Source of the DNA: Sistotremastrum niveocremeum HHB9708 | Taxonomy: Eukaryota > Basidiomycota > Agaricomycetes > Sistotremastrales > Sistotremastraceae | Direction of reading: 5' to 3' | Length of the DNA: 64,000 nucleotides | Assembly: GCA_001630475.1 (NCBI GenBank) | Contig: KV419430.1 | Span: 275,031-339,030 of the forward strand | Shown: positions 3,657 through 59,816 of the stretch, in pieces | Position numbering within the stretch: position 1 is the stretch's first letter | Layout of the letters: each line of letters starts with the position of its first letter | The notes under the pieces: model-generated | What the model was told of the DNA's origin: nothing | Database searches by the model: none | What the model saw: only the letters and a program-made list of their open reading frames with translations | Program-made: the position numbers and the translations under genes

Positions 3657-6600
3657 ATGTCTTCCGCTTTTCAAGCACCATCTCAAGTTCGCGACCAGCT
3701 CTTGCCTGAGCTTTTCGTTGCGACAGGCACTGCTAATCTAGACCATGTCTTCGCCAAAATAATTGAAGGCGATATCGAGCATCCTGCCATCGGAGAGGTG
3801 ACATGGCGCCAGCTCCTCACTCATGCCAATGCCATCGCCGAATCCTTCTCTCGCAAACTCCAAGTTAGGGAGCCTGGACATCCTACTCGCACTGTCGGTA
3901 TATTGGCCAAGAACGGGTACAGCTACGTCGCGCACTTCCTTGCGGCGTCCCTCAATGGATGGACGGTAAATATTTCTCGTCACATAGAGAAAAGTTGTAT
4001 CCTGACTTGGACATGATCCACGACAGGCGATGTTGATTTCTTCGAAGAATAGTCCCGCTGCGATCGATCATCTCCTCGCAACTTCACAGTCAGAATATCT
4101 TCTGATCGATCAAGACTCTCGCCCTTTGATTCAAGGCTGCGCGTTCAATATTCCGATTCTCAACTTCTTCGACCTCGCGTCTTTACCTCCTCACGGCTTG
4201 CCGTCGCCCAAAACCATCAGTGCCGAGGTCCTGCAGAAAGACATCTTACAGCCGGCTTTTTACATCCATACATCCGGTTCCACCGGTCACCCCAAAATTA
4301 TTCCATGGGTTCGTACCAGGGCTCTGCGTAACCTTTTAGCGGAAGAAACTAACATGCTTCACAGACTCATCAATTTTTCTCGCAGACGGTATACGCATAT
4401 CTCGAGGAAGTCCAAACTTTCCGTGGTTATCTCATGTATGCTTTGGCTCCGATGTGTCATGTGAGTTCTGATCCGTTAATTTTGACACGTGCTGAGATAT
4501 CATCCAGGCGATGGGAGCTATATTCTACCTGGCTTCCGCCCCTGTCGTCGGCAATCCCATTCTCTTCGTCAAATCCAATAAACCCGTGACAGGGGATGCA
4601 CTTCTCCGTCATCTTCGCTCCTTCTCAGATGTCCTTCTTGCGGCTATACCCTCCATTCTTCAAGAGATCGCCGAAGCTGGAGAAAGCGCAATGAAGGAAC
4701 TCGCAAGTCATGTAAAAGTAGCTTTCTTCGGTGGTGCCGCGTTAGATCCCGACGCAGGCGATCTTCTCAGTGCGAATGGCGTGCGAATCCAGACTGCTTA
4801 TGGAATGTACGTCCGACCATTACCTCACAGAACCTCAGCTGATGAACATGACATAGGAGCGAAATTAATATTGCAAGTCGACTGACGCTCCCTACGGGTC
4901 CGGTTAAGCCTGGCGAATGGAAGTACTTGCAGTGGAGAAAAGGATATAATATTCACATGATTCCGATCGAAGGATCCGAGGCAAAGGAATTGATCGTTGA
5001 GGTATAATCTCATTAATGACGCTATCCGCGGCTGTTTGATTAGTATGTGTTAGGCGGCTGAAGATTGTCCAGCCATCATCGACACGGTCGAACCCAGAGG
5101 CTTTCACACCAAGGACACATGGCTAGAGCATCCCGAGAAACCTGGCTGGTGGTGCCACGCGGGACGAATGGACGACATAACCGTTTTGAGCAACGGCGAG
5201 AAGACCAACAATAAACAACTAGGTAACTTCTCCTCCGTTATTCTGTGGTCGTGGATGATTCTAATGCTTCGCAGAAACGATTCTTCTCCGCGACCATCGC
5301 TTCCGGCATGTCGTCGTCTTCGGTCAAGGACGGCCTCAAAATGGAATTCTGGTCGATCCAGCTCCTGTCACTCGATCACTCAACACCTTCGTGGACGACG
5401 TATGGCCAACGATCGAAGCTTTGAACAAAGAAGTTCCCATGCATTCTCGCCTCGTCCGTGAACTTGTTCTGGTCGCACGACCTGATAGACCGTTCTCTCT
5501 TACAGATAAAGGCACGGTTCGCACCAAGATCACTCTCAACCTTTATGGCAAAGAAATCGAAGAGGCTTACAAGAGTATCGAAGAGAACGATAGCTCGAAA
5601 TGGGAGATCCCGGCGGCGTTTAACGCGGAAAGCATCACCGATTTCCTCGTCAAAGTCATAGAAGATATACTAGGCCACGGGATTAACAAGTCAGATGACC
5701 TCTTTGCTCAAGGCAAGTGACTTTTATTCGCTTCGGTTCATTGCAGGCGCTGACATATTGCTCGCGCTTTCAGGAATGGATTCACTTCTCGCCGTCCGAG
5801 TCCGATCCTCCCTACTCCCACTGGTCAAAGCGTCACCCACCCCATTCTTGAAGCTTCCCAGGAACGTCATCTATACCTACCCCACGATCCAAGCATTGGC
5901 CGAGTTTCTCTCTGCCCATCTCGATCCATCTTCCGTCACACACGATATCAGCGCCCATGATAAGGTCCGCGACACGGTCAAAAAATATTCTCGCGGCTTC
6001 AGGCATCGAGTATTCGAAGCTGGATCGGCCGTCGCCGTTACCGGAACTACTGGGAGTGTAGGCTCATTCCTTGTTGCTCAATTGCTGGCGGATCCTACCG
6101 TCCGGATCGTCTACTGCCTGAATAGGAAATCGTCGAAGGACAACGCGAAGAGACAATTTGAGTCGTTCAAGGATCGTGGTCTTGATCTCAAGCTCTTCGA
6201 CAATGTTCCCAAACGGCTACGTTTCTTTGACGTTGATCTCTCGAATCCCAAACTTGGACTTCCTCAAGCCGAATACGAGGAGGTACGTCGATATGTGTAA
6301 CTCTTGATGTCACCGATCTGACTGCCGTTGCAGCTCCGTGATAATGTCACCCACCTCATTCACTCTGCGTGGCAACTCAACTTCAACATGGTCTTGGAAA
6401 GTTTCGAGAAGACGCACGTCGCTGGCGTACGGCATCTCATCGACTTACTCCTTGCCTCTCCTCGCCCTGTCTGCCCGCGCTTGGTGTTCCTGTCTTCCAT
6501 CTCATCAGTCTCGGAATACAAGGAAGGCCCAGAAGTTCCTGAGGTTGCTTTCGATGATCCATCGATTACGAAGATGGGATATGGGACTTCTAAACATGTG

Positions 6601-7272
6601 GGCGAAAGAATCATTCATAATGCAGTAGAGCAGGCTGGACTCAATGGCACTGTCATTCGTATTGGCCAAATCTCGTGAGTTTTCCTGATGATGTATTTGA
6701 TGAAATGGCATTAACTTCAAATTCAGAGGTGGTGTGACAGGTTCATCGGCCTGGACTCGCACTGAGCAATATCCCATCATGTTTACGTCAAGCATCGAAA
6801 TGGGAATCGTTCCCAGCGATCTTCCTGTGAGTACATATCGGTTCTCCTTGCCAGACGGGTGTATCTGACTGTATTCGCCTAGCCTCCTCGTTGGATTCCC
6901 GCAGACGTAACAGCTCGAGTGGTCCTATCGCAGACATTCCACGCCGACGCGAAGCCATTGGAATACTTCCATCTGGAAAACCCAGATCTCACGCCCTGGT
7001 CAGACGTCGCTGAGGTTGTCGCAACTCACAATGGTCGGAAGCTCAAGCTGGTACCCATGGCGGAATGGCTCGCTGAAGTCAAGAGACGGTCCCTGGAGCC
7101 GAATTTCGATGCGGACAAAGTACCGGCCGTCCGTCTTCTGGGATTCTACGAAAATGAGATCACGATGCCTGTTCTTGGAGTGAAGCGTGCGTTGAGCGTT
7201 GCTCCAGAGCTGAAGTTTGGCCCTATTCCGAAATCTTTGATCACCAAATATCTTGAATATCTACACCTTTGA
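3657..7272 (+). CDS. NRPS-like adenylate-forming reductase (A-T-R), copy 1
   Basis: The predicted enzyme activates a carboxylic acid with ATP, holds it as a thioester on a phosphopantetheine arm and releases it as an aldehyde or alcohol with NAD(P)H. I traced 11 exons: 3657-3965, 4027-4308, 4365-4460, 4508-4806, 4857-5001, 5054-5222, 5275-5712, 5774-6282, 6334-6674, 6727-6826 and 6883-7272. They sum to 1026 codons in frame with stop (1025 residues). The adenylation domain shows HTSGSTGHPK, YGMSE and the GRMDDITVLSNGEKTN block. The carrier site is GMDSLLA with Ser as the attachment residue. The reductase has TGTTGSVGSF for cofactor binding and a YGTSK (YxxxK) active site. There is no condensation domain. 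The seventh intron (5713-5773) begins with GC, not GT. The substrate is unknown. The architecture is that of fungal aryl-acid and aminoadipate-type reductases. Confidence 0.93.
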
Positions 7273-7684
7273 GTAGCATTATTTTGTCCAATTACGTCTG
7301 AGAAATAAAAGTAGAAGCAGCGGTACCACCTGTTGAGCCCTAGAGGTGACCTTCGTTGCGCTCACAACTTGAACTTCACAAATACTGAGGAGTTGCTGCA
7401 ATAAGCGGACCTGAAAGGACAAACAGGAGTAACCTCAGCCGAGTACACATAGCACTACACGCTACACAGCAGCGAAATACATTTGCGAGGAGAAAACGAG
7501 AAACCATGGATGATGCGAAAAGAAAGAGAGCAAACTCAAAGAACGAAAGCACAGATGAGCCACGTAGGAAATCCGAACAACAAATATTACTAGTAAACCA
7601 ACAGAACGCCATGCAAGGTCGTGAAAGGTCGTAAAAGGCGTGGATGCGAGGGAACACAATGAAAATATAGGAGAAAGAGTGAAA

Positions 7685-9803
7685 TCAGTCGGAATCTTGA
7701 GCGTTCCAGAGCCCGATCGTCCTATTGCCGGACGTTCTTCGTAGTCGACGCCCCATTGAGCCCTCGATAGCCTGATGCTGAGGGTACTGGTGCTGGACTG
7801 CCCTAGAAGGCTCTGGTGAAGCTGATGAACGGTCGCGTGAACGATATTGGGAAGCAGGAGTATGAGAGGAATGCGAATGCTCAGTGGAAGGAAAAGAGTA
7901 TTGGTGTGCGGGCGCACTATGTGTAGCGGCTGCTGCTGCTGCTTGTGAAGCTGATGAATGTCCCGTCCCTGGAATGACGGTATATGCACTAGGAGATAAT
8001 GGAGGTCGAGATCGGGAGTTTGATCGGGAGTGATATCCTCCGGGCGCCTGGAGTGCATTCTCGTTTGGTGAAATTTGAGGGTACGTCGAAGATGAAGGGA
8101 ATGGTATGGGGCCAGTGTGAGGCGTCCCTCGCGAATGGCTGTGGGGTGCATGTACAAGGTGATCCCGGTGGTCTCGATGCTCTCGAGCACCTTCTTTATC
8201 GCTCAATGGACCGCCATGGCTCCCAGAGCCAGAATTAGTGCGTGTACGATGATGCTGAGGTGGTGCTGGCGGTAGCGACCTCTCCTGTTCACGCGAGCTA
8301 AAATACCCGCTAGTCTGAGGTCGAAGTTGTCGACTACTTTGATGAGAGTGGCTGCGAGATGAGCTAGCAGCAGGTGGCACGGGAGCAAGAGGGCGTTCTT
8401 TAGTGGATGGGGTGTTGTTGGACGAAACCATTGGGACTAATGCTCGTTCGCGGGATCGAACTCTTGCAACCGTCGACGAAGACGCGGGAGCCGAAGCTGG
8501 GGCATCAGACATATAACCATGGCCATCAGGATAAAGCTGTTGGTGTCGAGTATCGGGAGTGACTGCAGGAGTGCTATGGCTATTCGAGCGTGGCTTGGAC
8601 CTTCTGCTGAAAAGTCCTCGGGAGGACGTTGTCCTAGTCACATAACGATCGCGATCGCTATCACTATTGACAGGCGTTTCATATCGCAAGTTATGAGCAG
8701 AATCAAGTATCTACACGTGTATTGGTTAGCATATACGACCCTGAAATTCCGTGGGGAGGCTCACATGAAGGTCAGGGTCAGAACGCTGCTTCACAGAGGA
8801 TCCCCCGCCGATACCGAAAGTGCGTGATTTAGAGCGTTGGGGAGTGTTGTTTGACGGAACTGGCATTCCTGGCATCTCAATAGCCTTATATTTGCCCTTG
8901 AACGTAGTGGATGGTGGAACCTGAGTGCTGGGCGTCTCTGGCTCATCAGAGAATGGGGTTTTGTAGAGAAAATTGACGGGCTCTGGGGGTAATGGGAGAG
9001 GGTTTGCGCGATTTGAATCCAGATCCAAGTTATTGCGAAGCAGCTCGTTGTCTTTTTCGAGATCCAGAACCTATTTTCGGCGGAGGAATGATCAGTGGTG
9101 TGGTACGAATCAGATTAATGTGTTCATTTACTTTGCTGTGGTCAAATCTTCAGCTGAAGTTCCAATGTCGAAATGGCAGAATACACTCACGCATTCAACG
9201 CCCGAATCTTGACCTCATTCTCCTGCATGTGACTGCGCAAAGTCGCCTCTGCCGTCCGTGCTCGTTCTCTATACTGAAGTTTGCTTTCCGCAAGTATGCA
9301 GAGTTTCATGACCAGATCGCAGTAGCTCCTTAGGAGATTATGCTATAAAAAGGATCAGTCAGATAGATACTGGCGTGTCTCAGATGAAGGCGCACCTTAG
9401 AGACTTCCTGCTTTGATAGCCACCCCCGCACATGCTCTGTCTCAGATCTGACATGGGCAAGGCTATGAGTACCTGTGAGATCTGCCAGCTTTGTTTCCAT
9501 CTCGGTCATCTCTGGATCCAACTCCTCTGGATTTTCTTCCGGCTTATCCCCTCCATAGTCGATGTGCAGCTTTATGATCCGCTCCCGATTGAACCAGGCC
9601 CGACATAAATGGCATGAGCTTCCAATAGACTGAGAGCAGTTTCGACATAGACAATGCCCTGATTGTGATTCTCAACGGAGGTATTTATCTCAGCGCTTCA
9701 ATTGCTTACCACATGTAAGGACGACTGGTGTAACTGCGTTCTCCTCGTATTTCTCTAAACAAACATCGCACTGTGAGGCCGAAGCATCCAGAACGATGGG
9801 CAT
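7685..9803 (-). CDS. RING-finger protein with long disordered tail
   Basis: The start at 9803 gives a short N-terminus followed directly by a RING-type zinc finger: CDVC in exon 1, then GHCLCRNC and CHLC in exon 2, so the ring is split by an intron after the third cysteine. RING proteins usually act as E3 ubiquitin ligases that recruit an E2 enzyme. After the ring comes a stretch of charged, probably coiled helix (about residues 80-200, including a segment rich in E, K and R), then a Pro/Ser/Arg-rich low-complexity tail ending in GLWNAQDSD before the stop at 7685. The length is roughly 550 residues. The junction near 9195-9071 does not fit a GT donor in frame; a GC donor would, so that junction is provisional. 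The target is unknown. The gene sits tail to tail with reductase copy 1. Confidence 0.8.
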
Positions 9804-10242
9804 TACGGTGAAGGGTGTAAGATAAAGAGGTAACGGTCGAAACGACTAATTCATGTCAAGATTGCCTCGTGTGCATTATTCTGAGACACCGGGTCCGAGC
9901 GCGTCACCGTATTTGCTCTTTATTTGCGAAACCGCGGCGTTTCGTTATGAGCGATGATGCAGCCACTATGGCCATGAGAAGATGACCGAACATCAAAAGT
10001 CAGCGTATGGTTACTAGATGAGGTACCAAGGTGGAAAATCGGTCGAAGAACTCGACGAAGAAAGTAGACTAACTCTGAATAGCACAGATCTAAATTTGTT
10101 TGGAGGGAAAGCAAAATGCGCTGCCACGGGTCGAGATCCCCGAAGGGTTCGATGCGTGCGTGCGCGGCGACTATATTGATAGTACTGAAGAGCAGTACAT
10201 TCAGCACAGAGCGATTTTGTAAATGACATGGATGAGGAGTAA

Positions 10243-10968
10243 CTACAAACGACGACCACGACGACCACCCTGAGACAAACGTTAATATAGTCCCATACGA
10301 TAGACAAAATCTAGAACGCACCTTTCTCCTTGTGCTATCAGAAGGAACGGGGGTAACATCCTCAATGCGTCCAATTCTCATTCCAGCACGAGCAAGGGCA
10401 CGGAGAGCACTCTGAGCGCCAGGACCGGGAGTCTTGGTTCCAGTTCCACCGGTAGCTCTGAGCTTGATGTGGAGAGCAGTGATACCAACTTCCTTGCAGC
10501 GGGCAGCTACATCCTGAGCTGCCAACATGGCTGCGTAGGGAGAAGATTCGTCGCGATCAGCCTTGACCTTCATTCCGCCTGTTAAAGAATATATGAGAAT
10601 CAGGTTGACAGGACGCTACGGAGAGAACGCACCAGTGACACGGCTAATGGTTTCCTTTCCAGAGGGATCGGTGACATGGACGAAAGTATCGTTGAAGCTG
10701 GCGTAGATGTGCGCAACACCGAAAACGAGTTCACCCTCCGCGACTTGGGGACCAAGAGAGACAGTGGCTTCCTCACGGGGGGCTTTTCCTTTCTTGGGGG
10801 GCTAAATGATACACTCAGTCAGTTACACGTTTTCAATCAGCCAGTCCGAACGTCATCCAATAGCTGAGAGTTGCATCCATTGGATTTTCAACCAGGTACC
10901 CAGCGAGAGTGCGTTCCGTGCACTGTGGAAGAACGCGTGCACTCTCTCAAAGGAATTAAGCTTACCAT
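10243..10968 (-). CDS. RPS14: 40S ribosomal protein S14 (uS11)
   Basis: This is a component of the small ribosomal subunit platform, required for 18S rRNA maturation and subunit assembly. Four exons fit exactly: 10966-10968 (the ATG alone), 10633-10801, 10322-10578 and 10243-10269, giving 151 residues, the usual length of the family. The N-terminus reads [12 protein letters not shown]. The conserved core includes [20 protein letters not shown] and the [18 protein letters not shown] region. The tail ends [13 protein letters not shown], with the last nine codons on their own exon. The first intron sits directly after the initiator codon, a common arrangement for ribosomal protein genes. This housekeeping gene interrupts the reductase cluster, which argues against the cluster being one tightly co-inherited pathway block. 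Confidence 0.97.
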
Positions 10969-11851
10969 TTTGTTGAAGTCGGATGTCGAGGAGGGGTCGA
11001 GAACGATGAGCTTGAGGACTTGAAGTGACAAGGTTTGGAGCGGAGTTACAAACGTCCCACATCGGCAACTTGCCGGACCGGGTCCAATTTGTCTAGACTT
11101 CATCTTTCAGACTTCAACCTTCAAGTTCAACTGCATAAGTTCCTGCAATGGCTGCTGGTCCCTCTATCCATCCATGGCTACACCTCTCAGAAATTTAGGA
11201 CGCAATCCTTTCGGTTTGATGCTCTCAACTAAATTTCTTCTAAGCCACTCTGATGAATTTCACAGGCATTCGTGTCAAATGGATGGGCCGCCCAAAAATC
11301 GTGAAACGCACTGGAACAGAGTGCTCAGAGAAGGCCTGCTTCGTGGTTCCAAAAACCTGGCCCTTTTAAATCTTATGGCGCGGTCTCGAGAGTGGTAAAG
11401 AATACACCCCTCCGAAAAAGACTTGGGATATATTCAGATCGATCCACGTGCACCCTGAGGTGGCATCTCATCCAACGTGAGTACTCGACCAGAAGGGATC
11501 AAGAATCACACGAGTCTGCCTGTTCTTACTGCATCTTCAGACTATGGTGCTCTCCTAATCTGGCTCGAGCCTTTCTGTTGGAACCCGATATAGGAGAACT
11601 AAAGTTTAAAAGGCAACGCACCGCCCATCTTCTGAACTTGCTTCTATGGGTGGAGGCACGAGTCATACGATTGTATCTGACAAGGAGAAACGGAGGTTTC
11701 GGGTGCCCTGACTGCGCCAGATAGCCCATGCAGTCCCAAGAAGGAATTCAACACGCCCGCTGTATGTTCGGTAATTCTGATGGACCACTCCTGAGATATC
11801 TTCTCAGTTGATAAAGACCATGTCGAAGGTGGAGTCCCTCAGGTCCCGTCC
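10969..11851. other. divergent intergenic region
   Basis: About 880 nt separate the starts of RPS14 (minus) and reductase copy 2 (plus), so the stretch probably holds both promoters. Short overlapping open frames occur on both strands with no domains or splice logic. No clear TATA box is seen at the spacing found for copies 1 and 3. Confidence 0.5.
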
Positions 11852-14800
11852 ATGGCTCTCTCCCCTCCTCCCCAGATTCGGGACACACTCGTACACCATT
11901 TGTATCTCAAGACGGAGAAGCAGAAACCTGACGCGATATTCGCGAAAATCATCAATGGCGACGTTTTGGATCCCGTCGCCAATGACATCACTTGGTCCCA
12001 GCTCATGCGAGACGTCTGTTCGGTGACATCGCAGTTGAAGAGTAGCATAAGGCCTCGGACTTCCGGAACGCCTATGAAAGTCGTCAGTGTCCTAGCAAGA
12101 AGTGGCTACAGTTATTTGGTCCATCTTCTCGCCATAATCTCTTGTGGCTGGACGGTATGTTCTTTATGTCAATACCAGACACATAGCAACGAAGACTCAC
12201 TTTGACAAAGGCTGCATTGCTTTCTACAAAGAATAGTCCGGCAGCTCTTGAGCATTTAATCGAGGCCTCGCATTCACAATATGTCCTGGTCGATCAGGAC
12301 TCTCGTGCTCTTATTGAAGGGTGTCTCCTGATGATTCCCTGCCTCGACTTTTTTGACTTGTCCTTGTTGGACGGCGGAGATTCCCTACCGCCCACACAAC
12401 CTGAAAGTACCGTGGTCGAAAGTGAATTGGATGTCCCCGCATTATACTTACATACCTCGGGGTCTACAGGACATCCTAAGCTTGTTCCATGGGTACGAGA
12501 CGCAGTCAATACACATCCAAATTAATCTCATGCGGTGTCAGACTCACCGGTTCATCTCACATGCAATTTTTTCATATCTGGAAGCAACTGAAGAGTACAA
12601 AGGATGCATGTTCTACTGCCTTGCACCGATCTGTCATGTACGTTTCGCTCTAGACATGGGTGATTGTTCCTCAGCTGACGCAGTGATCAAGGCTATGGGT
12701 GCAATGTTTGCGCTTGAAGCTCCTTTGGCGTTCGATTGTCCTATCCTTTTCGCCGAGTCTAAAAAGCCAATCACTGGAGAAGCTCTACTACGTCACATCC
12801 GGCCGTTTTCCAACGTCGCGCTCATTCCGATTCCCTCAATTTTACAACAAGTTGCCGATTCTGGCCCGGAAGCGATGCGCGAACTCGCAAGTCACTTGAA
12901 AGTGGCGTACTACGGTGGCGCAGGGCTTGACGTCGACGCTGGGAATTTACTCAGAGCACACGGTGTGCCTGTTATCTCAGGCTTTGGAATGTTTGGGTTT
13001 CACACTATTCTTTTTCCGGCTAAACCGACTAAACTTCGTATAGGGCTGAAATAAACATAGGATGCTCGATGCTGATACCACATCATAATCTTGACAATGG
13101 CGAATGGTTATACTTTCAATGGAGGAAAGGATACAAAATTCTCATGATCGATTCGGCGGATGAGCCTGACATCAAAGAATGCATTGTCCTTGTGCGTAGC
13201 TCTCGATAACACTCTCTTGTGATGTTTGTGTTGAACCTGGGGATAGCCAGCTGAAGACACGCCAGCAATTATAAACCACCGAGATCCAATCGGATTTCGA
13301 ACTGGCGACCTTTGGAAAGAGAACCCTCACAGGAGCGGCTGGTGGAAGCATGTCGGTCGCGTCGGTGATGTCACTGTGCTGGCCAACGGCGAAAAGACCA
13401 ATAACAAGCAGCTTGGTGAGGCGTACACCTTGCTGTATATACCTGCAGGATTTCTGATAAACTCGCCGTAGAGACATTGCTACTCCGGGATCCCCGAATT
13501 GATTATGTAATTGTGTTCGGAGAAGGCAAGGAACAGAATGGGCTTCTCCTCAGTCCCGCCCCCGTGCTCTCGAGTCCTGCTGCATTTGAGGATGAAATAT
13601 GGCCTCTTGTTCAGCGTATCAACGAAGAGATCCCAAAACATTCCCGGATCAATCGTGAACTGATACTGGTTGCGACTCCAACTCGTCCATTCGCTTTAAC
13701 GGACAAAGGCACCGTACGAGCTAAAGCAACGCTAGCGATGTACGAGAAAGATATTGAAGAAGCATATCGAACGATGGACATGGATGACAGCAATCTCTGG
13801 ACGTTTGATCGAGAGTTCAACCTGGCCAATCTGACAACAAATTTATCTGCGGCAATTGGTCAGATTATGTCCCGAAAGATCTCAGTCTGGGATGACCTTT
13901 TCGAGCAAGGTTATTGCATTCTCGCACACGTGAAATTCAGGCTTATTGTTGAATGTAGGCCTTGATTCGTTCCTTGCCTTTCGCGTTGCCGCAGTTGTTC
14001 GGGGCGCCGCCAGAGCGTCGTCATATCCGGATGCTGTCATCCCAAGAAATGTGGTCTATGTGTACCCCTCAGTCGCAGCTCTCGCTTCTTATGTGCATTC
14101 GCTTGTCCCCTCTACTGCCGAACCTGTCCCCGAAGATGATGCCACAGCAGTCGAAATGATGATCGAAAAGTATTCCGCAAACTTTGTCGTCCAGAATCCA
14201 AACCCGACGGGAGATCTTGATGGCATCGTCGTTGCGTTAACAGGAGCTACAGGCAGCGTCGGATCGTTCATCTTCGCCGAGCTGCTGGTAGATCCGAAAG
14301 TTCAATTGATATACAGTCTTTACCGCCCATCAGTCCAGGATATCGGAGAACGTCAACTGAAATCCTTTGTCGACCGAGGGCTGGATAGTTCTCTTCTTCA
14401 AGAATATGTTCATAAGATCCGCTTTGTCGCAGTTGATCTTGCCGTCGATCGACTGGGGTTAGATGAAGCATTGTACGACGAAGTACGTTTTCTCATTACT
14501 CTCAAGCTATTCTTTGACTGACATGTCGAAGATTGCTCGTGCAGTGACACATATCATACATCCTGCCTGGCACGTGAATTTCAATCTGTCCTTGCAAAGC
14601 TTTGAGAGAACGCACATCGTCGGAGTTCGGAATCTCATCGATCTGGCATTGCTCTCACATCGAAGGACTCGCCCACGCTTCATCTTCTTGTCATCTGTTG
14701 CATCCGTTGCTGGATATTCGGGACCTTCCGGAGTGCCCGAGGAAACGTTCAATAATCCGCAAGTAGCCAGAACGGGATATGGCATGTCGAAATATGCTGC

Positions 14801-15492
14801 TGAGCGGATTCTTGATCGGGCGGTCATTGGTGCTGGGCTGAATGCGGTAGTCATTCGGCTCGGCCAACTTTGGTGCGTTCTGTCTTCACGGTCACGAGCT
14901 GTGTTAAGCTGTTCATCCAGTGGGGCGACAATCGGGACGGGTGCCTGGAGTCCATCTGAGTATATCCCCATAATATTACGATCCAGTCAATTATTAGGTA
15001 GTATACCAAGTGACCTTCCCGTGGGTGTTTTGCGATTCTATCGGTACTTCGGCTTACACGAATCTGCGACAGGATCAACGGTGGCTTCCGGTAGACATTG
15101 CATCCAAAGCAGTTATCTTGCTTTCCTTCAACTCTTCCGCGACGGTGCCTGCATATTACCATGTTGAGAATCCCAAACCAACGCCGTGGAGAGAGATCGT
15201 AGGCATAGTCGCAGATTGCTGCATTCCTAAGCTTCAGCTGGTCCCTATGGATGAGTGGTTAGAGTATGTGGCTCAGCGGTCAAAAAAATTGGAAACGAGC
15301 AGTGTCCCGGCTTCCGCGTTATACGACTTTTTCGCGAATAGGTTCTCGACGCCTCCTCTGATAACCGACAGAACATTGAGTCTTGTCCCATCGGTGAACT
15401 TTGGGTCCATCCCTGGAGATCTGATCCAACATTATCTTCATTACCTTGGACTTATACCTGACGTTGAATTGGAAGATGCAGGCGTCGACTAA
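11852..15492 (+). CDS. NRPS-like adenylate-forming reductase (A-T-R), copy 2 (divergent)
   Basis: It has the same domain order and intron positions as the other copies: exons 11852-12154, 12211-12492, 12542-12637, 12692-12990, 13044-13191, 13247-13415, 13472-13909, 13959-14482, 14532-14872, 14921-15020 and 15073-15492, giving 1040 codons with stop. The adenylation motif is HTSGSTGHPK. The carrier site is GLDSFLA with the Ser kept. The reductase has TGATGSVGSF and a YGMSK active site. It is the most divergent member: YGMTE/YGMSE is replaced by FGMAE, the DDITVLSNGEKTNN block reads GDVTVLANGEKTNN, and the C-terminus has an extra acidic tail of about ten residues (IPDVELEDAGVD). All catalytic signatures are present, so it looks functional. 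The changed motif around the adenylation site suggests a different substrate (inference). Confidence 0.92.
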
Positions 15493-15779
15493 TCCCTACG
15501 GACTTGCCCTGGACACATTTCATGCGTAGTTAAAACAAATTTTTCGATTCAAGAGGCTTCGAAGCATGTCATAATTTGCATTCGGAGGAGCGTTTGCGAC
15601 GTATGACATAGTGCATGTAAAAATAGTCTCCTCATACTAGTCCATTGAAGCGAAGAACAGCTCAATCAATGTGTCTTCCTGTCACGACTCACAACCGAGA
15701 TAAAAAGGTTTCTAGTCGCCCATCGATGGCGTTCGCTTGTGAATTCGCAGGGATGGATCAACTGAGAAGTCTTGAAGCA

Positions 15780-16507: not shown

Positions 16508-16661
16508 GCTCTGGGAGAGCGGAGTTCTGAATTATTGTCGCCAGAGATACAGCAGTAGAATCCATGTACAGCAGACTGTGTTCGAGACGGAAAACTGACG
16601 TTAGAAACACATCGAAAGCTCAGCGTCGGAGTTGAAGCGAAGTTCAAAGAGAGGCGCCCGA

Positions 16662-16779
16662 GACGCATGCCGGTTAGGCTAGCCGGTGAGTAGCCGGTGT
16701 CGATCCCTTTAGCCCGTTGCCAAGAGCCTTTAGCGCCCATTGCCGAAGCTCGGCTAGATAATTTTAGTTCCGCTTCTCC
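16662..16779. other. spacer of the inverted repeat
   Basis: This non-palindromic spacer joins the two arms and lies between two outward-facing TATA-bearing promoters. A recognisably related spacer, flanked by the same short arms, occurs in the third repeat copy at about 63500-63600, so the spacer is part of the element and not just an accidental junction. Confidence 0.55.
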
Positions 16780-16930
16780 GGCGTCTCCCTTTGAACTTCG
16801 CTTCAACTCCGACGCTGAGCTTTCGATGCGTTTCTAACGTCAGTTTTCCGTCTCGAACACAGTCTGCTGTACATGGATTCTACTGCTGTATCTCTGGCGA
16901 CAATAATTCAGAACTCCGCTCTCCCAGAGC

Positions 16931-17640: not shown

Positions 17641-17903
17641 CCACTGTACAAAGCCACGATGCATTAAGACTTCTTAGATGATCTATCCGAGTGAATTCAC
17701 AATCGAACGCCATCGACGGGCTAATAGAAACCCTCACCTCTGGTTTGCGAGTTGTGGCGGGATAACACACTGATTGGGCTGTTGATCGCTGTCATGTATG
17801 AGGAGACTATTGCTACATGCACTTCATCAAGTGTCGCTGTGCTCATCATATTCTAGTCGTAACGCGCACAAACACGTACACTGACATTGAAAGGAATCTA
17901 TTC

Positions 17904-20900
17904 TCACAAACCGAGGTATTCAAGATATTTTGTGATCATGGAATCACGTATAGGACCAAACCTCAGCTCCGGCCCTAATTCCAACGTGCGGTCAACATTC
18001 AGCACAGGCATCGTAATCTGGGTTTCATAAAATTCAAGAAGTCGGGCAGCTGGTATTTTATTGGCATCGGAACGAGGCTCCCGGGAAAGCCGTTTGACTT
18101 GATCGATCCATTCTTGCATAGACACAAATTGGAGCCTCCTGCTGTGATAAGTAGCTGCGACGCCTGCAATGTCCTGCCATGAAGTCAAGTCGGGGTTCTC
18201 CAGATGGAAGTATTCGACAGCCTTGGCTTTAGGGTAAAAGCTTTGAGAGATGATGACTCGAGCAGCCACGTCGACCGGAGTCCATCGGACAGGCTATGGG
18301 GTCATGAAAGTAGGACCGTAATGAAAAGCTTTTGAAGGCTTACTGGAAGATCGATAGGAAATACACCCATTGCTACACTTGACATGAAGAGAATTGGATA
18401 TTGCTCCGTTCTGGACCAGGCTCCCGATCCACATGTCGCTCCACTAAGGCGGTGTCAGGGACTTCCTATATCAATGACATACCGAACACATCTGCATACT
18501 CACGAAAGTTGACCGATACGGATTACGGTACCGTTAAGTCCGGCGTCCCTGACTGCGTTATCGATGATGCGCTCGCCAACAAACTTGGAAAGGCCATATC
18601 CTAGGCCGGTGATGGATGGATCCTCGAATGCCACCTCTGGGACTTGAGACCCTCCGCGATATTGTGCGACCGCTGCAATCGACGAGAGAAATATCAAACG
18701 AGGGCAGTCGGGATGGGGAGAGGACAGAGCAAGATCTATCAGATGACGGACGCCTGCGATGTGCGTCTTCTCGAAGCTTTCGAGTGCCATGTTGAAATTC
18801 AAATGCATGCGGAGTGTATGATGTGGGTAACGCTCTCGCTGATCTACAGTGGTCGTCAGTTCATGAACCATCAATCACCGATAATGTAGCAGCGGCATCG
18901 GCCATCGGGGGAACGTACCTCTTGATAGTCGGCTTCGGTAAGTCCAAGCTTAGAATCAGAGATATTGATATCAAGGAACCGAATCCGATCGCGCATCGTC
19001 TCAAGCACCGCGGGATCGAGTCCTCGATCGCGAAACGCGTTCATTTGTCTTTTCGTCGTGCTCTGTGACGACTTTCGGTTTAAGCAATATATCATGCGTA
19101 CGCCAGGATCCTGGAGTAGCTGAGAGACCAGAAAGGAGCCAACGCTCCCCGTAGTGCCGGTGACAGCTACGACCGCTCGAGCCTCGAGCCATTGTGGGAT
19201 GTCGCGAATAGAGCGCGAAGGAAAGGATCCACAGTACTTTTGGATGACATCATGCACATTAACATGGTCGCTCGTACTCTGGGCTTCGATTGACGGGTCC
19301 AAGTGAGCGGTCAAAAAACCAGTCAATGAGGAAACGGTGGGATAAGTGTATACAATATTCCGCGGGAGACCGAGCCATGGAACTGACGATGCCTTGACGA
19401 GATGGACCAATGCTGATCTGACTTGGAACGCGAGAAGCGAGTCCATTCCTGATGGAGGAGTATTAGTTTGTAGACAATCCAAATCATGTAGGGCAAGCTA
19501 ACCTTGTGCGAATAGATCTTCTGTTTGCTTCACTTCGTTTCCGATAACCTTCTGAATCGCATTGATGATATACATTTCGATGCTGTGCGCATCTATATTG
19601 ACGGGCAGCTGCCAGCTAGAGCTTTCGCCGTTTTCCATGTCGAGATAGGCAGACTCGATGTCCTGTTCATATAGAGATAATGTTGTCTTGACGCGAACGG
19701 TGCCTTTATCGGTAAGAGAGAATGGACGGTTAGGACTGGCGACGAGAACAAGCTCTCTGATGAGGCAAGAGTGTAACGGAACTTCTTTGTTCATCGCGAC
19801 AATGGTAGGCCAGATATCATCAATGAACGACCGTGGATCTTGTGTTCCCGGAGCAGGATCGACGAGTATCCCGTTCTGTGACCGTCCTTGACCAAAGATA
19901 ATGACGTGTTGAATACGACGATCCCGCCGCAATAATGCTTCTATAGGTGAGTGAGAAAAGCAGAGTATGATGATCAAGCAAGACTTCTTACCCAGCTGCT
20001 TGTTATTAGTCTTCAGTCCGTTACTCAACACGGAGACATCGTCGAGTCTCCCAGCATGACGCCACCAACCGGATTTGGTGGAGTGTTCAACCCACGTGTC
20101 TCTCGTGCGAAAGCCTCGTGGAATGACATTGTTGATGACGGCTGGGATATCTAGTCCAGGCTATGTATTTTGTCAGTGACACCGGGAAGCCCCTCTGAAA
20201 ATACCACACAGTACCTCTACTATCAACTCTCTGGCGTCAGAGCCTTCAACAGGAATAAGGTGCATCTTGTACACATTCCTCCATTGTACATAATTCCAAT
20301 CGCCGTCCAACAAAGGCACCTTGGGTAGCGTCAGGGGGACCACCGAGCCGATCTCACTCCTAACATTCAAAACCGTCACACACCAATAGTGATAAAGCGT
20401 CAAAAAAGCTAACTCACGATCCGTAAATATTCTTAAGGAGAATTCCATGCGCGCCGAGCAAGTCACCAGCTGCTGCGTCTAGTCCAGCGCCAGCGAAAAG
20501 CACCGCAGCCGCTTGGTTAGCAAATTCTTCAATGATCTTTTCCCCAGCTCCTGCAATCTCCTGTAAAAGAGAAGGAATAGCAGCAATAATAGTGTTCGAA
20601 AAAGGACGAAGGTGTCGAACGAGGGCGTCCCCATTTAGGGGTTTGCGTGAATTGGCGAAGATGATAGGGCTACCGATTATTGGAGCTGAAGTCAGATAGA
20701 ATATGAAACCGGTGGACTAACAAAGTCAGCCGATACTCAAAAACATATTGAGCATGCCTCACATGGAAAATAGGGGCACAAGAATATAAGGGGTGACCAC
20801 GGAAATCACCAGCGTCCGAGAAGAAGAGATGAACGCACTGGCCGTAGAACTGGTGACTCTGTGGCTAAACTGAGTGATGGTCCAGGCGCCGCGAAGGATT

Positions 20901-21555
20901 TACGCACGCATGGGACGACCTTGGGTTGTCCAGTAGACCCTGAAGTATGAAGATAGTACGCTGTTTTGTGAACCTCTATCTCGAGCAGCTCTGGAGTAAT
21001 GGTTTTGCTGGGCGGCAGGCCGTGGGAAGATAAAGAGGCCAGATCGTAGAATTCGAGAATAGGGATGGCGAAAGAACAGCCTTGAACCAAAGAACGGGAG
21101 TCTCGGTCCGTCAGAAGACATTCAGATCCCGATTCTTCCAGAAGATGGTCTATCGCAGAGGGACTGTTTTTGGTCGAAAGGAACATTATCTAATTGATAA
21201 TAATGAGGACCAGGATCCGTGTGTCACTTCTAAGGGACAGGCTTACCGACCATCCATTCAGCAGCACTGCTAGAACGTGTGGAACGTAATTGTAGCTGTG
21301 CCTCGCTAATATTCCAATCGTCCTCTCGGGCGATCCTGGTTCACGTGGTTCCACACTTTTCGAGAGTTCTTTGGCAATAGAATGGGCTTGCGTTAGCAGC
21401 TGATGCCATGTGGCACTCTCTACTACCGGCTGGTCGATGTCGCCATCTATAATATGAGCAAATACGTGATTAGGATTGAGAGTAGCCGCATGCAAGAAGA
21501 GCTCAGAGATGAGTCGATCGCGTATGTTGGATGGTGCTTCAAAGGTGGAAGACAT
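17904..21555 (-). pseudogene. NRPS-like adenylate-forming reductase (A-T-R), copy 3, one-base frameshift
   Basis: Eleven exons match the paralogues: 21247-21555, 20908-21189, 20763-20858, 20418-20716, 20215-20359, 19992-20160, 19503-19940, 18919-19448, 18504-18843, 18344-18443 and 17904-18293. Ten are of normal length. Exon 9 is 340 nt instead of the 341 nt found in all three other copies. The missing base falls in the codon for a conserved Trp (HSAW in copy 1) at about 18812, and the frame then meets a stop two codons on. All other signatures remain: HTSGSTGQPK, GMDSLLA, TGTTGSVGSF and YGLSK. The usual PW before intron 2 is PC here. Either the gene has just been inactivated, losing most of the reductase, or the assembly has a base error. 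In sequence it is closest to copies 1 and 4. Confidence 0.8.
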
Positions 21556-34526: not shown

Positions 34527-34686
34527 CTCGGACGACGGTGCGATTCTTCCCCATTTTCTCTTTGCGTGCCCACCGCCATCAATCAGGGAACCGGAACACG
34601 ATTTTCGATTTCAAGCCTGAATATCCCACCACTATATACAGAAACGGAAATAAAGCTGAATGGTATTATATTCATGATGCCGCGGG

Positions 34687-35890
34687 TCACAGCCAGACGA
34701 ACGATGACCGTTGCTGAGCATTGGTGTCTGTACTTCTTGCTAACAAAGTGAGATTTGCTCCTCCCTGGCTTCGCTCGTATACCGCAACACCTCCACCAGT
34801 TAAACCAGCGGCAATAATATACTCATTATTGGGCCCACCGATCCCCATCCCTCTTATTTGATTGAGGCCGGTGAAAACTTGTGTGACCAACTGCAGCGGA
34901 TTCGTCGAGAAAATGGCAATGGAATCCCCTCGCGGATCGGGATTTCCGTTGTTAAGGCGGTTGGAAGCGTAGATGTATTGTGTAGGGTATTGTGAGTTGG
35001 GATTTGGCATCAAAAGCTCCCCGGCACCGTATTGGCTCGTGGTGGCGCCAGCAGGGGTGATTGGCAATGAAGAAACGATAGGAGCCGTCGTTGTCGTCGG
35101 TGAGCAAGGTATACATTGCTGGGTTAAAGTGTTTGCGTCTTCATGTAGGACATACATCGTGGTCCCGGATATGGCTATACGGCGAGGTCCACTTCCCGAA
35201 GGTTGAGGAATGTACCCATTGATGGCCCAGGTACCAGTAGAGTTACTCATTCTCCACACTTTGTCGGCGCCCTTGTTACAAGGTCATGAGCATCCGCGCT
35301 CTGGCCTAAACAGATGAACGTACTAGATCGGCGATGAACATTTCCGGGTCGTAACGTGCAAGAAAGTGAGGATGTGATTGTCCCCCATTCGCGGTAAACG
35401 AAATCAAGGGAGGATTGGAGTTGGCAAAGTGAACGAGATCAGAGCTCAGAGGGAAAAATTCTGCATTTCCACTGTTATACTGCAGCCGGCTATAAGATTT
35501 TACTAATGCGTGAGCGAAAATGAAACTCACATTGAGAGCAGCAATTGTCTGTCCGTCGGGCAATGGGGTCGCGAACGCCGGTCCATTTCCTCCCGTGTAA
35601 ACCGTCGAGACTTGAGTCAGAGCACCTCCAGAACCGATGTTGAAGGTCAGCAGTTGTCCGTATGAATTCTCATTTGTAGCGCTATGAATTCCGCATCAGC
35701 CCTTGTCATTCGCAGAATTAAGGCAAGCTCACTAGAGGACATTGGGGTTGATCGGGCTCTGGGCGATCCATGATGGATTTGTGCCCGCTGGTGACGTGCC
35801 TTGAACAGTCAACGAAGGAGGCGAGCTTTGGAATAAGAAAGATGTAATGACAGATGTGTAGCCGCCAGCCAGAATAGTAAACGAGACCAT
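34687..35890 (-). CDS. lactonase-fold beta-propeller protein, tandem copy 1
   Basis: The product resembles the seven-bladed propeller family of fungal 6-phosphogluconolactonase and carboxymuconate-cyclase-like proteins. The N-terminus is MVSFTILAGGYTS, the family's opening strand. The C-terminal exon has PSGSGPRRIAISGTTMYVLH, YIYASNRL-NNGNPDPRGDSI, and LNQIRGMGIGGPNNEYIIAA, ending SSFVWL. The pattern of a propeller strand, NR followed by a DSI/DSV turn, then RGM..GPNN, is shared with the next gene. There is no clear signal peptide from the chosen ATG at 35890; an upstream ATG (35935) would add a hydrophobic start. The length is about 370 residues over four exons. The substrate is unknown, and many such fungal proteins lack tested activity. 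Confidence 0.8.
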
Positions 35891-36335
35891 AGCGATTGCA
35901 CCGAGGGTCAAGAACGCCACCCAAGAAGGTCCCAATTACTTGCAGCGGTACATATAGACAAGTATTGCGCCAGACTATGTCTAAAAGACATCCTCGGACA
36001 GTCACCGGGTATCCAGGAAGCTATTTCACAGGTGGTGAAGTCATATGCGGCATATCTATGGCTGCTTTCGGCTGAATCTAGCATTCACCGTAGAAACTCC
36101 TGGATAACCAACGGCGGGTCTTTCGAAGGTACCATTTATTTTAGAAACAGCTTCAATGTTAGAAGTCGCGGTCCTGAGATCTCATCGTCACGGCACAGAT
36201 GGGAAGCATGAGCTCATCGTCATTTATAGGAGGTCGAGGCAGCAGAGCAGAACATCGGCTGCGTCAAGGCAAGGCTCAAAAAGGCTTTCAAACTCCGATC
36301 CTAGCTCTGACCAACATCATATATTTCAGGATAAA

Positions 36336-37542
36336 TCAAGTCAGCCATATGAATGTGGATCGGTCTTGCGAGACTGCTTCGGTGTTACGCGCCAACAATT
36401 TCAGACTCGCCCCACCATCTATTCTCTCGAATACAGCGACGCCACCGTCAGTCAAGCCCGCCGCGATCAGGTATTCATTGTTCGGGCCGCCCAACTCCAT
36501 GCCACGTATCTGGTCGAGTCCAGTGTACACTTGCGTTACGAACCGCAGAGGGTTAGTGGCAAATATAGCAACGGAATCGCCTCTTGGATCCGGGATGCCC
36601 GTATCTCGGTTAGATACGTACAGAAACTCTTGAGGGAAGAGTAGATTCGGCTTAGGGAAAAGAAGTTCGGCGGCATGGTAGGTCCCGTTGGTGGTGTTCA
36701 CTCCTGGAGGAGTGGTCAACAGAGTTTTGATCGTCGGATCCGCTGTGGAGAATCGGGAAGCAGGAATGATTTGTTCCGATAGAGAGTTGAATAATTCGTG
36801 CAAGACGTATATGGTATTTCCCGAGATTGCCACCCGACGAGGTCCACTTCCAGATGGTTGAGGGATGTATCCGGTGACAAACCAGGTGCCATTCGTCTCT
36901 TGCGATAATCGCCAGATCTTATCGGCACCCTACCATGACGTCAGATGGGGAAAGAGGCACACGACAAAATACTTACAAGATCTGACACGAACACCTCCGA
37001 GTTATACTGGGTGAAGAAATGAGGATGCGAAAAGCCGTTGACAGGCGCTTGAAAGGTAATAGTCTGAGGCGATCCGAAATGCAACAAATCGCTGCTGAGG
37101 GGTACGAATCTGCCGTTTCCAGTGTTGTACTATTTTCTCAACGTCATTCTCCGTGATCTTGAGAAAAGATTCAACGCACATTTAGAATTAAGGCTTGCTT
37201 GCCGTCCGACAGAGAGGCCGTAAAGGCCGGATCGTTCCCCAAAGACGGAATACTTGAAACTTCATGCACCGCTTGACTTTTGTCTATCGTAAAGGATAAC
37301 AAGGATCCGATGGTATTCTCATTAGTGCCACTTGATGAAATTAAGCAATGATCCTGATTCTTGATCAAAGGTGCAATAACTCACTAAAGCACACTTTTAT
37401 TCAAGGGACTCAGTGACAGCCAGGACACATTGTTGCCAGCCGGATAGGTATCCACCACACTGAGTGAGGGAGGCGAGGTCTGGAATAACAGCCTGGTGAT
37501 AAACGTGGTGTATCCACCGGCTAAGATGGTGAATTTGACCAT
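36336..37542 (-). CDS. lactonase-fold beta-propeller protein, tandem copy 2
   Basis: This is a paralogue of the preceding gene, same strand, with about 450 nt between them. It starts MVKFTILAGGYTTFITRLLF at 37542, aligning with the other copy's MVSFTILAGGYTS start. It ends STFIWLT at 36336. Shared blocks include GPRRVAISGNTIYVLHE, FLYVSNRDTGIPDPRGDSV and LDQIRGMELGGPNNEYLIAA. Intron positions, judged from the breaks in the open frame at about 36910-36975, 37132-37182 and 37325-37385, correspond to those in copy 1. All blades appear present, so it looks intact. The pair arose by tandem duplication. A role in lactone or sugar-acid metabolism is inferred only from the fold. Confidence 0.8.
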
Positions 37543-38463
37543 GATGCGTAGAGGCGAAAGGGATGATGCTCGACAACATTGCCCTCGGAGTTTTATGTGC
37601 AGGAAGTATCCTCGTCAGCTGGACAGATCGCCCAGATACATGGTGCAAGGGAGCTTCTTGGATTCTTGATTTCTCTCGGTGACCCGTCGCGTGCTGACAG
37701 TGACACATCGAGACGACTGGCTGTCATCTCGAGCAAATTGAGTAGGAGGAGACAGCAAAGCGTTCGATTATCATGTTGGAATACGACTCCTGCGCTCCTT
37801 TATCGCATTTACTCCCTTCCAGGTCTCCGAAGTGGATTGTGAAATAGGTTTGATCACATTCGGAAGGCGTTTGCGATGTCGATTGGGTACAATCTCGTGG
37901 GGTCGATGCACCCCCTCCATGAGATGATCTGAGCGAAGGATGTCGCAAAGTCCTTGGAGTAACATCGCTACAACTCGGATTGTGCAGGCAGAGGAGATGA
38001 ATCGATTCGGTGACAAGGTGGATGAGATCATGGCGTCTGTTAGCCATATTGGATCAGAAGCCATATTCTAACGAATCTAAGAACTTCAGCTGCTGACCTA
38101 AGTATACTGTCGTAATTCTGCGCTCTGAAACGAAGTGCTCTGCATTTCTCCGCGAAGATCTTGAAAGCCTCTTCGGCAGTAAGCCAGACGAGGCCAGCTT
38201 ATTGGGCGAGATAGCGGTCGTAACGTATGAGCTCGACAAGTTGGAGAATGATTTCCACGATCAATTTAGTCACAGAGGCAGCATGATAGGTTGTAGATGT
38301 GCGTGATGTAAGATAGAATGGAGAGAAGCAAAAAGATGTTTGGTTTGGCCGTAGAGTACTATGCACGGCAGCAAGAGAGAAAGAGGCACAGGCGCCGTCC
38401 TTTTCTATACATATCTCGCTTACCAGTAGTCCCTACAGTACGGATTAAATTTTCACTTTTTCT
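37543..38463. other. unassigned region with possible gene remnant on minus
   Basis: On minus, fragments such as VEIILQLVELIRYDRYLAQ and LTAEEAFKIFAEKCRALRF (about 38260-38110) read like protein but are separated by a stop, and no start or splice pattern joins them. Other frames here (37771-38064 minus, 37579-37842 plus) are less convincing. It may be a decayed gene upstream of the lactonase pair. Confidence 0.25.
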
Positions 38464-42940: not shown

Positions 42941-45900
42941 ATGTCTTCATCTTTCATCCCTCCACAGAAAATTCGGGACCAGCTCGTGTCAGAATTGTTC
43001 ATCCAGACAGCCATTCTCAATCCCGACCGCACGTTTGCTCACGTCATAGACGGGGATGTCGCACATCCTGTCGTAGAGAGTATAACATGGAGTCAGCTTC
43101 TCGCTCATGCCCATTCTATTTCAAAAGAACTGTCAAACTGGGTGCAACCACAGGAAAGCGGGCTTGCTCCGCGTACCCTTGGTCTATTGGCCAGGAATGG
43201 CTACAGCTATGCAGTGCATCTTTTAGCAGTGTTGCTGAATGGATGGACGGTTAATATCGCCTTGAATAACGATATTCTCATTCACCAATTCTCTGGTAGG
43301 CGACGTCGATCTCGATCAAGAACAGCCCTTCTGCTATCGATCATCTCCTACACACCTCAGGAGCAGAATACCTCCTCACCGACCAAGACTCTCGTCCTCT
43401 AACTGTGGGGTGCTCCTTCAAAATCCCCGTCCTCGAATTCCGCAACTTGTCAACTTTGCCTTTCCACGGCATGCCTTCTCCCAAGTCTGTCACTCCGGAG
43501 GCGCTGGACCAAGCGGTCCGGCAGACTGCTTTCTATTTTCATACTTCGGGGTCCACCGGACACCCGAAGGTCATCCCATGGGTATGTCGATTCTGAACCG
43601 TCTTCCCCCCCCCTTGATACGGACTGAGATTCTCTGCAGACCCATCAGTTTTTTGGTCAGATTGTGACATTATACTTACCAGATGTAGAGGGTTATCATG
43701 GTCACCCGATTTATTGTCTAGCGCCAATATATCATGTAGGTATCAATCAGAGATGACTCCAAAACAGTGCTCAACCCGCTTATAGGCTATGGGGACGATA
43801 TTTTCTTTAGCTTCTGCATTAATCGTTGGGAGCCCTTTGATTTTTGTCGAAACTCGGAAGCCTATAACCGGAGAAGCTTTGGTTCGGCATCTTCGTCCTT
43901 TTTCGGAAGTCATCGTTGTTGCTGTACCATCAATATTACAAGAAGTCGCAGAAGCCGGTGAAGCTGTGATCAAGGAATTTGCAAGTCGAGTGAAAGCGGT
44001 ATTTGTCGGAGGTGCCGCTTTCGATGTTGCAGCGGGAGACTTATTGAGTGCATATGGAGTGGCCATTCAGACTGTCTACGGAATGTAAGTCCATTTCTGT
44101 GATTTGAGTTTCACGTCTGACAGTATCTCAGGACTGAGATCAATATGGCGGGTCGTCAAACAGTCCCAAAGTCTCCTCAAGGGAACGGAGAGTGGAGATA
44201 CGTGCAGTGGAGGGATGGATATAAACCTCACCTTATTCCGATCGAAGGCTCGAACGCGAAAGAATTGATAATCGAGGTATTCCTTTGCGGCTCGGTTTCG
44301 AGATTTGACTTGCTGACAAGCTGTTAGCCAGCTGAAGACTCACCGGCAGTCATCGACCACGATAATTTGCGAGGATTCCGCACCAGGGATACATGGCTCG
44401 AGCATCCTATCAGACCTGGATGGTGGGTTCATGCGGGTAGATTAGATGACATCACAGTGTTGAGCAATGGAGAGAAGACTAACAACAAGCAGCTTGGTGA
44501 GCTACCTGTTCCTTCTGCTGATAAATCATCTTATTCTTCTGAAGAAATAATTTTACTCCGGGACCGTCGTATACGAAACGTAGTTGTCTTCGGGGAAGGA
44601 CGGCTGCAGAACGGAATACTGGTCGATCCTGTCACGGATATTCAGGACCCGCAGTCATTTATTAATGACATCTGGCCGACAGTCGTGGCCATGAACCAAG
44701 AAGTTCCGTCGCATTCTCGTCTGGTTAGAGAACTCATTCTTGTCGCGGATCCTGATCGCCCGTTCGCCTTCACTGATAAGCGCACTGTCCGTGGGAAAAC
44801 GACCTTGGCCCTCTACAAGAAAGAGATTGATGCAGCCTACAAGAATCTGGAAGGAAGTGAAAGCCCTGAGTGGGAAATTCCTAGGACTTTCGATGCTCAG
44901 AGCATTCAAACATTTATTGCTACCGTCGTTCGAAGCGTTCTAGCTCGTGAGGTGAATGAGACGGAGGACCTCTTCGCCCAGGGTGAGCTCATCCTGCATC
45001 GTGTTACGAGCTTTATTGACATGTATCTTCTCGGATTAGGCATGGATTCCCTTCTTGCAGTCCGAATCAGATCCTCTCTTCTGCCTCTCATAAAAGCGTC
45101 ACCGCAGCTAGCGTTAGACCTGCCCAGGAACGTTGTGTACACTTACCCAACAGTTTCTTCTTTAGCTGCTTTCCTCTCCGCCAAACTCGATCCCTCTTCT
45201 GAAGCCCCTGCTGTTAGCGAACACGACAAAGCCCGTGATCTCATCAAAAAATATTCCGAAGGCCTTAATCCACACTCCCCCGATGTCACACAGAACGTCA
45301 GGTCAGGATCCGTCGTGGCTGTTACCGGGACTACGGGCAGCGTTGGATCTTTCCTCGTGGATCGCTTGCTTCGGGATCCCGAAATTGACAAGATCTACTG
45401 CTTGAACAGAAAATCATCGAAGAAGACCACGGAACGCCAAACAGGTGCATTCCAGGACCGAGGCCTCGATCATTCTCTGCTCGAGACCATGCCAGACCGT
45501 CTGCGGTTCATCGATGTTGATCTCTCACAGAGCAATCTCGGACTCTCCGAAGTAGACTACGACGAGGTATGTGTACCTGAATGCTTCTTCTCGTGATTTT
45601 CTCAAGGTTTACGCAGCTTCGGAATAACATTACCCATCTTATCCACACAGCGTGGCATCTGAACTTCAACCTCTCTGTCGAAAGTTTTGAGAAGCCTCAC
45701 ATCGCCGGCGTACGCCATTTGATCGATCTCGTCCTCTCTTCTCCCCGACCGGTCTGCCCTCGCTTTGTTTTTCTGTCTTCAATATCGGCTGTCTCGGAAT
45801 ACAAAGAAGCTCCAGAAGTCCCGGAAGTGCCTCTGGACAATCCTTCTGTTGCAAAGATGGGCTATGGTCTGGCTAAATTCGTCGGCGAACGCATCATAGA

Positions 45901-46564
45901 TAACGCTGTTCGTAGAGCCGGACTTAACGGTATTGTCGTCCGTGTAGGCCAAATATCGTAAGTCTTCAATTGGACTCGATTTCCTTTCACTCAACTAGGA
46001 TCATTAATATCACCTCAGCGGAAGCGCCTCCGCATCGGCAGCCTGGTCTAGAACCGAGCAATATCCAATGATGTTCATCTCAGGCATTGAACTTGGGATG
46101 TTTCCGAGTGACCTTCCTGTAAGTCATCGAGTTTTGTTGTAGCCGTTTGATGTCTATTCTGATCGGTCTTGTAGGCTGCGCGTTGGATTCCAGTCGACGT
46201 GGCTGCCCGAGTAATTATTTCTCAAAGCTTTCACTCTGACGCTAGAGCCCTCGATTATTTCCATCTTGAGAATCCCGAAGCCACGCCATGGTCAGACGTC
46301 GCAGAGGTTGTGTCGGGGCACAATGGGAGAAATATACAGCTTGTTTCAATGAAGGAATGGCTCGCCGAACTCAAGCAGCGTTCCCAGGAGCCGGATTTCG
46401 ACGCAGAGAAGATCCCAGCTTTCAGGCTACTAGGATTTTATGAGGAAGAGATCACGATGCCGATTCTTGGAGTTGGCCGCACGTTACAAATCAGTCCGGA
46501 GCTCAGGTTTGGGCCCATCGCACGAAGTCTAATCACAAAATATCTCGAGTATCTTCGGTTATGA
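42941..46564 (+). CDS. NRPS-like adenylate-forming reductase (A-T-R), copy 4
   Basis: It has the same architecture as the cluster at 3.6-21.6 kb although 21 kb away. Exons: 42941-43249, 43300-43581, 43640-43735, 43786-44084, 44132-44276, 44328-44496, 44545-44982, 45040-45566, 45617-45957, 46019-46118 and 46175-46564, totalling 1031 residues. Motifs: HTSGSTGHPK, YGMTE, GRLDDITVLSNGEKTN, carrier GMDSLLA, reductase TGTTGSVGSF and YGLAK. The enzyme should load and reduce an unknown carboxylic acid. Two of its introns (44497-44544, 48 nt; 44983-45039, 57 nt) are multiples of three without stops, so unspliced transcripts would still be in frame; the second lies immediately before the carrier serine motif. 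The first of them ends with an AAG acceptor. The gene appears intact. Confidence 0.93.
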
Positions 46565-59790: not shown

Positions 59791-59816
59791 CAACAATAAA
59801 ATAAAAGAGTAACAGA

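Follow-up and report, generated by a model that had tools for sequence, protein, structure and literature searches.

Four A-T-R reductase genes at one Sistotremastrum niveocremeum locus: probable old local duplicates, one frameshifted and with a divergent predicted pocket

Four similar adenylate-forming reductase genes lie near one another in the genome of Sistotremastrum niveocremeum HHB9708, raising the question of whether they arose by local expansion and whether the copies have since come to act on different substrates. We analyzed the window in which they lie, a 64,000-nt stretch of contig KV419430.1 (positions 275,031 to 339,030), and give window positions throughout. Our preferred reading, to which we assign a probability of roughly 0.78, is that the four genes are old local duplicates of a single A-T-R reductase, with nearly the same predicted substrate pocket in copies 1, 2, and 4 and a changed pocket together with a frameshift in copy 3. 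The genes form a real and old group that belongs to a known kind, and only copy 3 is noteworthy.

Gene structure, divergence, and descent

A small gene finder that takes splicing into account supplied models for the entire window, and those of the four copies were then set manually on the basis of splice signals and homology. The resulting models bear out the original prediction of four A-T-R genes with 11 exons each. Copy 1 (3657..7272, + strand, 1025 aa), copy 2 (11852..15492, + strand, 1039 aa), and copy 4 (42941..46564, + strand, 1031 aa) are intact, with exon lengths of 309, 282, 96, 299, 145, 169, 438, 509, 341, 100, and 390 nt in copy 1; 303, 282, 96, 299, 148, 169, 438, 524, 341, 100, and 420 nt in copy 2; and 309, 282, 96, 299, 145, 169, 438, 527, 341, 100, and 390 nt in copy 4. 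Copy 3 (17904..21555, − strand) follows the common plan as far as exon 8, which has 530 nt, and has lost 1 nt from exon 9. The near-uniform exon lengths noted earlier therefore hold in all four copies for the exons of 282, 96, 299, 169, 438, and 100 nt, but in only three for the 341-nt exon, which measures 340 nt in copy 3. Each gene is interrupted by ten introns of 46–75 nt, at matching places in all four copies as had been proposed. Copies 1, 2, and 4 share one set of ten intron phases (0, 0, 0, 2, 0, 1, 1, 0, 2, 0); copy 3 has the first eight of these, and its last two deviate because of its exon 9 deletion. A supposed loss of introns 6 and 7 from copy 4 was rejected, both being present and merely open in frame. 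Intron 7 of copy 1 (5713–5773) has GC-AG borders, while GT-AG is found at that intron in the other three copies.

The layout of the group agrees in most respects with what was expected: copies 1 to 3 fit within 18 kb (3657–21555, 17.9 kb), copy 4 starts 21.4 kb past the start of copy 3, and a ribosomal S11/RPS14 gene (PF00411, E 4.5e-45) sits between copies 1 and 2. Since the span from 3657 to 46564 also holds unrelated genes, with WASP-like, protein kinase, two lactonase, and SDR genes interspersed, it is not one unbroken array. No fifth copy was found in a six-frame self-comparison of the window (stop-free pieces of at least 30 aa, E up to 1e-4).

The encoded proteins have diverged considerably and, as predicted, copy 2 the most: it is 45–47.5% identical to the others, while copies 1 and 4 share 64%, copies 3 and 4 share 60.5%, and copies 1 and 3 share 59% identity. 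Nonsynonymous differences amount to 0.22–0.38 per site, and synonymous differences (pS) of 0.70–0.77 are saturated in all pairs, so the duplications are old rather than recent and cannot be dated. Taken with raw pN/pS ratios of about 0.3–0.5, this saturation indicates copies that are old and look constrained. There was no sign of recent gene conversion, the best 150-nt window being 75% identical. An unrooted tree of the four copies pairs copy 3 with copy 4 and gives copy 2 its longest branch (0.97). A tree of the R domain with two far outgroups (8aep and MxaA) failed to place the root, joining copy 2 with copy 3 at supports of 69–73.

The saturated silent sites would also be expected of four separate ancient lineages that lie close by chance, and the low identity of copy 2 and the position of copy 4, 21 kb off and behind unrelated genes, fit such an origin as well. 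Common intron places are ordinary for paralogues and are evidence of common descent, nothing beyond; even so, the occurrence of the same ten intron places in all four copies, together with the 59–64% identity among copies 1, 3, and 4, argues for common descent, and we regard chance proximity of separate lineages as unlikely. Local duplication remains our preferred account of the group.

Family assignment and expected reaction

By anatomy, all four copies are predicted to be A-T-R carboxylate reductases, with domains and motifs of a known kind. Pfam matches to PF00501 (AMP-binding) and PF23562 (AMP-binding_C_3) exceed the cut-off in every copy. PF00550 (PP-binding) does so in copies 1 and 4 and falls just short in copy 3 (20.0 vs 20.8 bits); at E 0.001 Pfam did not recognize this domain in copy 2, which nevertheless has the GLDS site with its serine, and the carrier serine (S583 of copy 1) is retained in all four. 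The PF07993 (NAD_binding_4) match of each intact copy (1, 2, and 4) runs to position 257 or 258 of the 258-position profile, but that of copy 3, when spliced like its relatives, only to position 96. Residues K193, E331, D398, R415, and K518, which correspond to the catalytic positions of ANL enzymes, are retained throughout, as are the TGxTGSVGSF nucleotide site and the GYGxxK site. NCBIfam thioester-reductase models also matched all four copies; for TIGR01746, copy 1 scored 162 bits, below the curated cut-off of 213.35. No condensation domain was matched in any copy (Pfam, E 0.001).

Among solved structures, copy 1 as a whole is matched best by the R domain 8aep (E 1.3e-49; 32–39% identity over the R domain), and the best matches to the A domain are the 4-chlorobenzoate-CoA ligases 2qvz and 3cw8 (E 2.4e-11); these are the nearest solved R and A domains by sequence, yet far relatives. 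Exon 2 of copy 1 searched alone gave no match in the PDB. A scan of prokaryote genomes returned five relatives at 22–23% identity, and these five loci were rejected as a tree root for being too distant; no relative was present among 111 pattern matches in viral contigs.

Duplicated L-alpha-aminoadipate reductase (Lys2) genes would have the same A-T-R order, and TIGR03443 does match all four copies at E up to 0.001. However, copy 1 reaches only 76.7 bits against the equivalog cut-off of 1030.1, and its H229 aligns to the aspartate of the NRPS psoA A domain, a residue that presumably holds the amino group, so that a Lys2 identity has next to nothing to recommend it. Assignment to the bacterial carboxylic acid reductase model NF041592 was likewise dropped, copy 1 scoring 52.4 bits against an equivalog cut-off of 1300.

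Judging from these domains and motifs, each intact enzyme would use ATP to activate a carboxylic acid, attach it to the T domain through the phosphopantetheine arm, and set it free at the R domain as an aldehyde, using NADPH, as published for relatives. An alpha-amino acid is an improbable substrate, and an aryl or other small acid would be the likeliest class.

Predicted substrate pockets and the broken frame of copy 3

Ten pocket positions were mapped onto copy 1 from what we take to be the pocket residues of 4-chlorobenzoate ligase; the alignment is a distant one, and 329 was used for 328. The comparison of pockets that had been suggested sets copy 3 apart and leaves the other copies nearly alike: the predicted pockets read AHAMAGAMNI in copy 1, AHAMIGGMNI in copy 2, AHAMVGVMNM in copy 4, and AHSTAAISGS in copy 3. 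Copy 2 equals copy 1 at 8 of 10 residues, and copy 3 is the outlier with 2–3 of 10. Copies 1, 2, and 4 differ chiefly at 326 (A/G/V), 274 (A/I/V), and 334 (I/I/M), and differences at two or three places are what would be expected for related substrates. Comparing pocket with A-domain identity pair by pair, p fell below 0.05 in one of six pairs (copies 3 and 4, p 0.018), the other five giving p 0.107–0.754.

The frameshift in copy 3, absent from the original prediction, lies within the R domain, in exon 9 (18504..18843, − strand). Spliced like its relatives, the gene meets a stop at 18799–18801 and encodes 770 residues, ending inside the R domain; in the other frame, clear homology continues through exons 9, 10, and 11 to the conserved-end stop at 17904, and the GT-AG splice sites are preserved. 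A second acceptor, lying 5 nt downstream, would bring the frame back and was picked by the gene finder unprompted, at the price of about 13 residues swapped for 11 others around the conserved R-domain IIHSAW. Because the sequence past the frameshift is without relaxed constraint, the frameshift would reflect either a very recent event or a base that the assembly has dropped.

This constraint is visible in the private changes, that is, sites at which a single copy departs from the other three. In the A domain (538 columns) these number 15 in copy 1, 17 in copy 4, 38 in copy 3, and 67 in copy 2. The corresponding counts, again for copies 1, 4, 3, and 2, are 3, 3, 4, and 24 in the T region (100 columns); 4, 3, 5, and 11 in the R domain before the frameshift (101 columns); and 10, 11, 8, and 55 past it (261 columns). 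Relative to copies 1 and 4, copy 3 is therefore fast in the A domain only (A vs T+R, p 0.027).

What has become of copy 3 can be read in several ways. Its frameshift and early stop, along with the excess of private A-domain changes over copies 1 and 4, are what a young pseudogene would display if its A domain had already escaped constraint beforehand. The odds are somewhat against this, although it deserves serious consideration: we saw no further disruption, the splice sites and the alternative frame have survived to the end of the gene, and the T and R domains show no relaxation. The same A-domain changes may instead have altered the pocket for a different acid in a copy with a new function, the frameshift then being a sequencing error or bypassed through the second acceptor. 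Of the seven pocket positions that are identical in copies 1, 2, and 4, copy 3 departs from five, compared with 33 of 219 such positions elsewhere in the A domain (p 0.0017); the catalytic positions are retained, the R domain changes at a normal rate on both sides of the frameshift, and the gene finder chose the in-frame acceptor without guidance. That first pocket list, however, had one 4-chlorobenzoate ligase position exchanged for its neighbor with the alignment in view, and the enrichment shrinks with the strict list (4 of 7, p 0.0165), with the four pocket strands (p 0.053), and with the A4–A5 stretch (p 0.20); bypass would, moreover, displace the conserved stretch around IIHSAW. A new function for copy 3 is accordingly a tentative proposal, and one that we are inclined to doubt.

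An enrichment of copy 3 changes in the predicted pocket is suggestive, but as the wider definitions of the pocket give p 0.053 and 0.20, we do not take it as shown. We can also imagine, as a decidedly improbable case, that copy 3 was adapted to a different acid with its reductase half still under constraint, and that it is now either active on a substrate the other copies do not share or a nascent A-T protein whose reductase has just been cut off. If that were true, the cluster would hold conserved and newly specialized reductases together.

These results bear unevenly on the earlier proposal that divergence near the adenylation site points to new substrates. Such divergence does not apply to copy 2, whose pocket is close to that of copy 1, and applies weakly to copy 3 (p 0.0017–0.20, depending on definition). 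New substrates accordingly do not follow from divergence in general, and are plausible for copy 3 alone, a gene that is frameshifted in the assembly. Should the pocket change of copy 3 be real, the four genes would offer a naturally occurring set of matched reductases in which to relate pocket residues to the choice of acid, a relation that one study calls unclear until now (PMC9605436). Position 326 in this set is A, G, V, or I, and two solved 4-chlorobenzoate ligase chains also differ there. Otherwise, the group is one more case of clustered basidiomycete-type reductases.

Published counterparts and surrounding sequence

Kalb 2014 and Brandenburger 2018 are said to be the core papers on these reductases. 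Local expansion, as originally proposed, stands insofar as a paralogue family occupies one place, but it is not novel, as the same arrangement is published for the white-rot basidiomycete Phlebia radiata, in which Nrl2–Nrl4 are clustered and Nrl5 is nearby (PMC6540522). There too, three adenylate-forming reductase genes lie together with a fourth close by, a likeness of published description rather than of sequence. The P. radiata cluster has GH12, AA3, and GH131 genes close to it, whereas none were found by Pfam among 10 neighboring models here, and the P. radiata genome has a GC content of 53%, vs 49.7% for the present window. Beyond this report, nothing joining these reductases, gene duplication, and a cluster was found in the portions of the published literature available to us.

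Other fungi provide looser parallels. A survey of fungal carboxylate reductases recognizes 84 in seven clades, of which clade V is mainly basidiomycete (PMC9605436); those enzymes and the four copies share the A-T-R order and an expected ATP- and NADPH-dependent formation of aldehydes. Pleurotus eryngii, a lignocellulose-degrading basidiomycete, resembles the present group in having four putative carboxylic acid reductase genes, which are proposed to convert 4-hydroxybenzoate to its aldehyde, with no cluster described in the text available (PMC8227661). Combat between two brown-rot fungi is accompanied by a rise of two NRPS-like proteins in one of them (PMC7399148), and two NRPS-like genes stand beside a PKS in Hericium (PMC11643632). 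No comparable A-T-R gene cluster is described in the accessible parts of PMC11643632, PMC8779187, or PMC2823734.

The neighborhood, too, gives little reason to regard the group as the undescribed biochemical system that had been envisaged. Pfam identified the RPS14, WASP-like, protein kinase, SDR, and two lactonase genes, and among 10 neighboring models or model parts (3 of them without any match) there was no match to a PKS, terpene cyclase, P450, or transporter. With the domains and motifs of known carboxylate reductases and no natural-product partner in these 10 models, a new system is not supported. The SDR at ~38–40 kb could act on an aldehyde, but nothing ties it to the group. One neighboring model called a cyanase by eye had no Pfam match, and a DNA polymerase epsilon-like gene nearby is a candidate by eye. 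Neither structured RNAs nor tRNAs were detected at Rfam gathering scores or by ARAGORN.

Several duplicated elements were also seen in the window. The two lactonase (7-bladed beta-propeller) genes are adjacent (33929–38064, − strand) and represent another old local duplication. Copies 2 and 3 lie tail to tail, and between them is a large near-palindrome (15610–17823) whose inner arms of 794 nt are 98% complementary and 105 nt apart, the figure for the full 2.2 kb being 91%. A small open frame pointing outward lies in each arm, with no Pfam match for the element at E up to 1, and the arms end in hexanucleotide repeats. A third copy of this sequence, as a single arm 83–85% identical, occurs at 62641–63655, and the sequence is thus either a dispersed repeat or a small gene family. 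The segments 59803–60135 and 62012–62342, each of about 330 nt and 78% identical to one another, form a separate inverted repeat.
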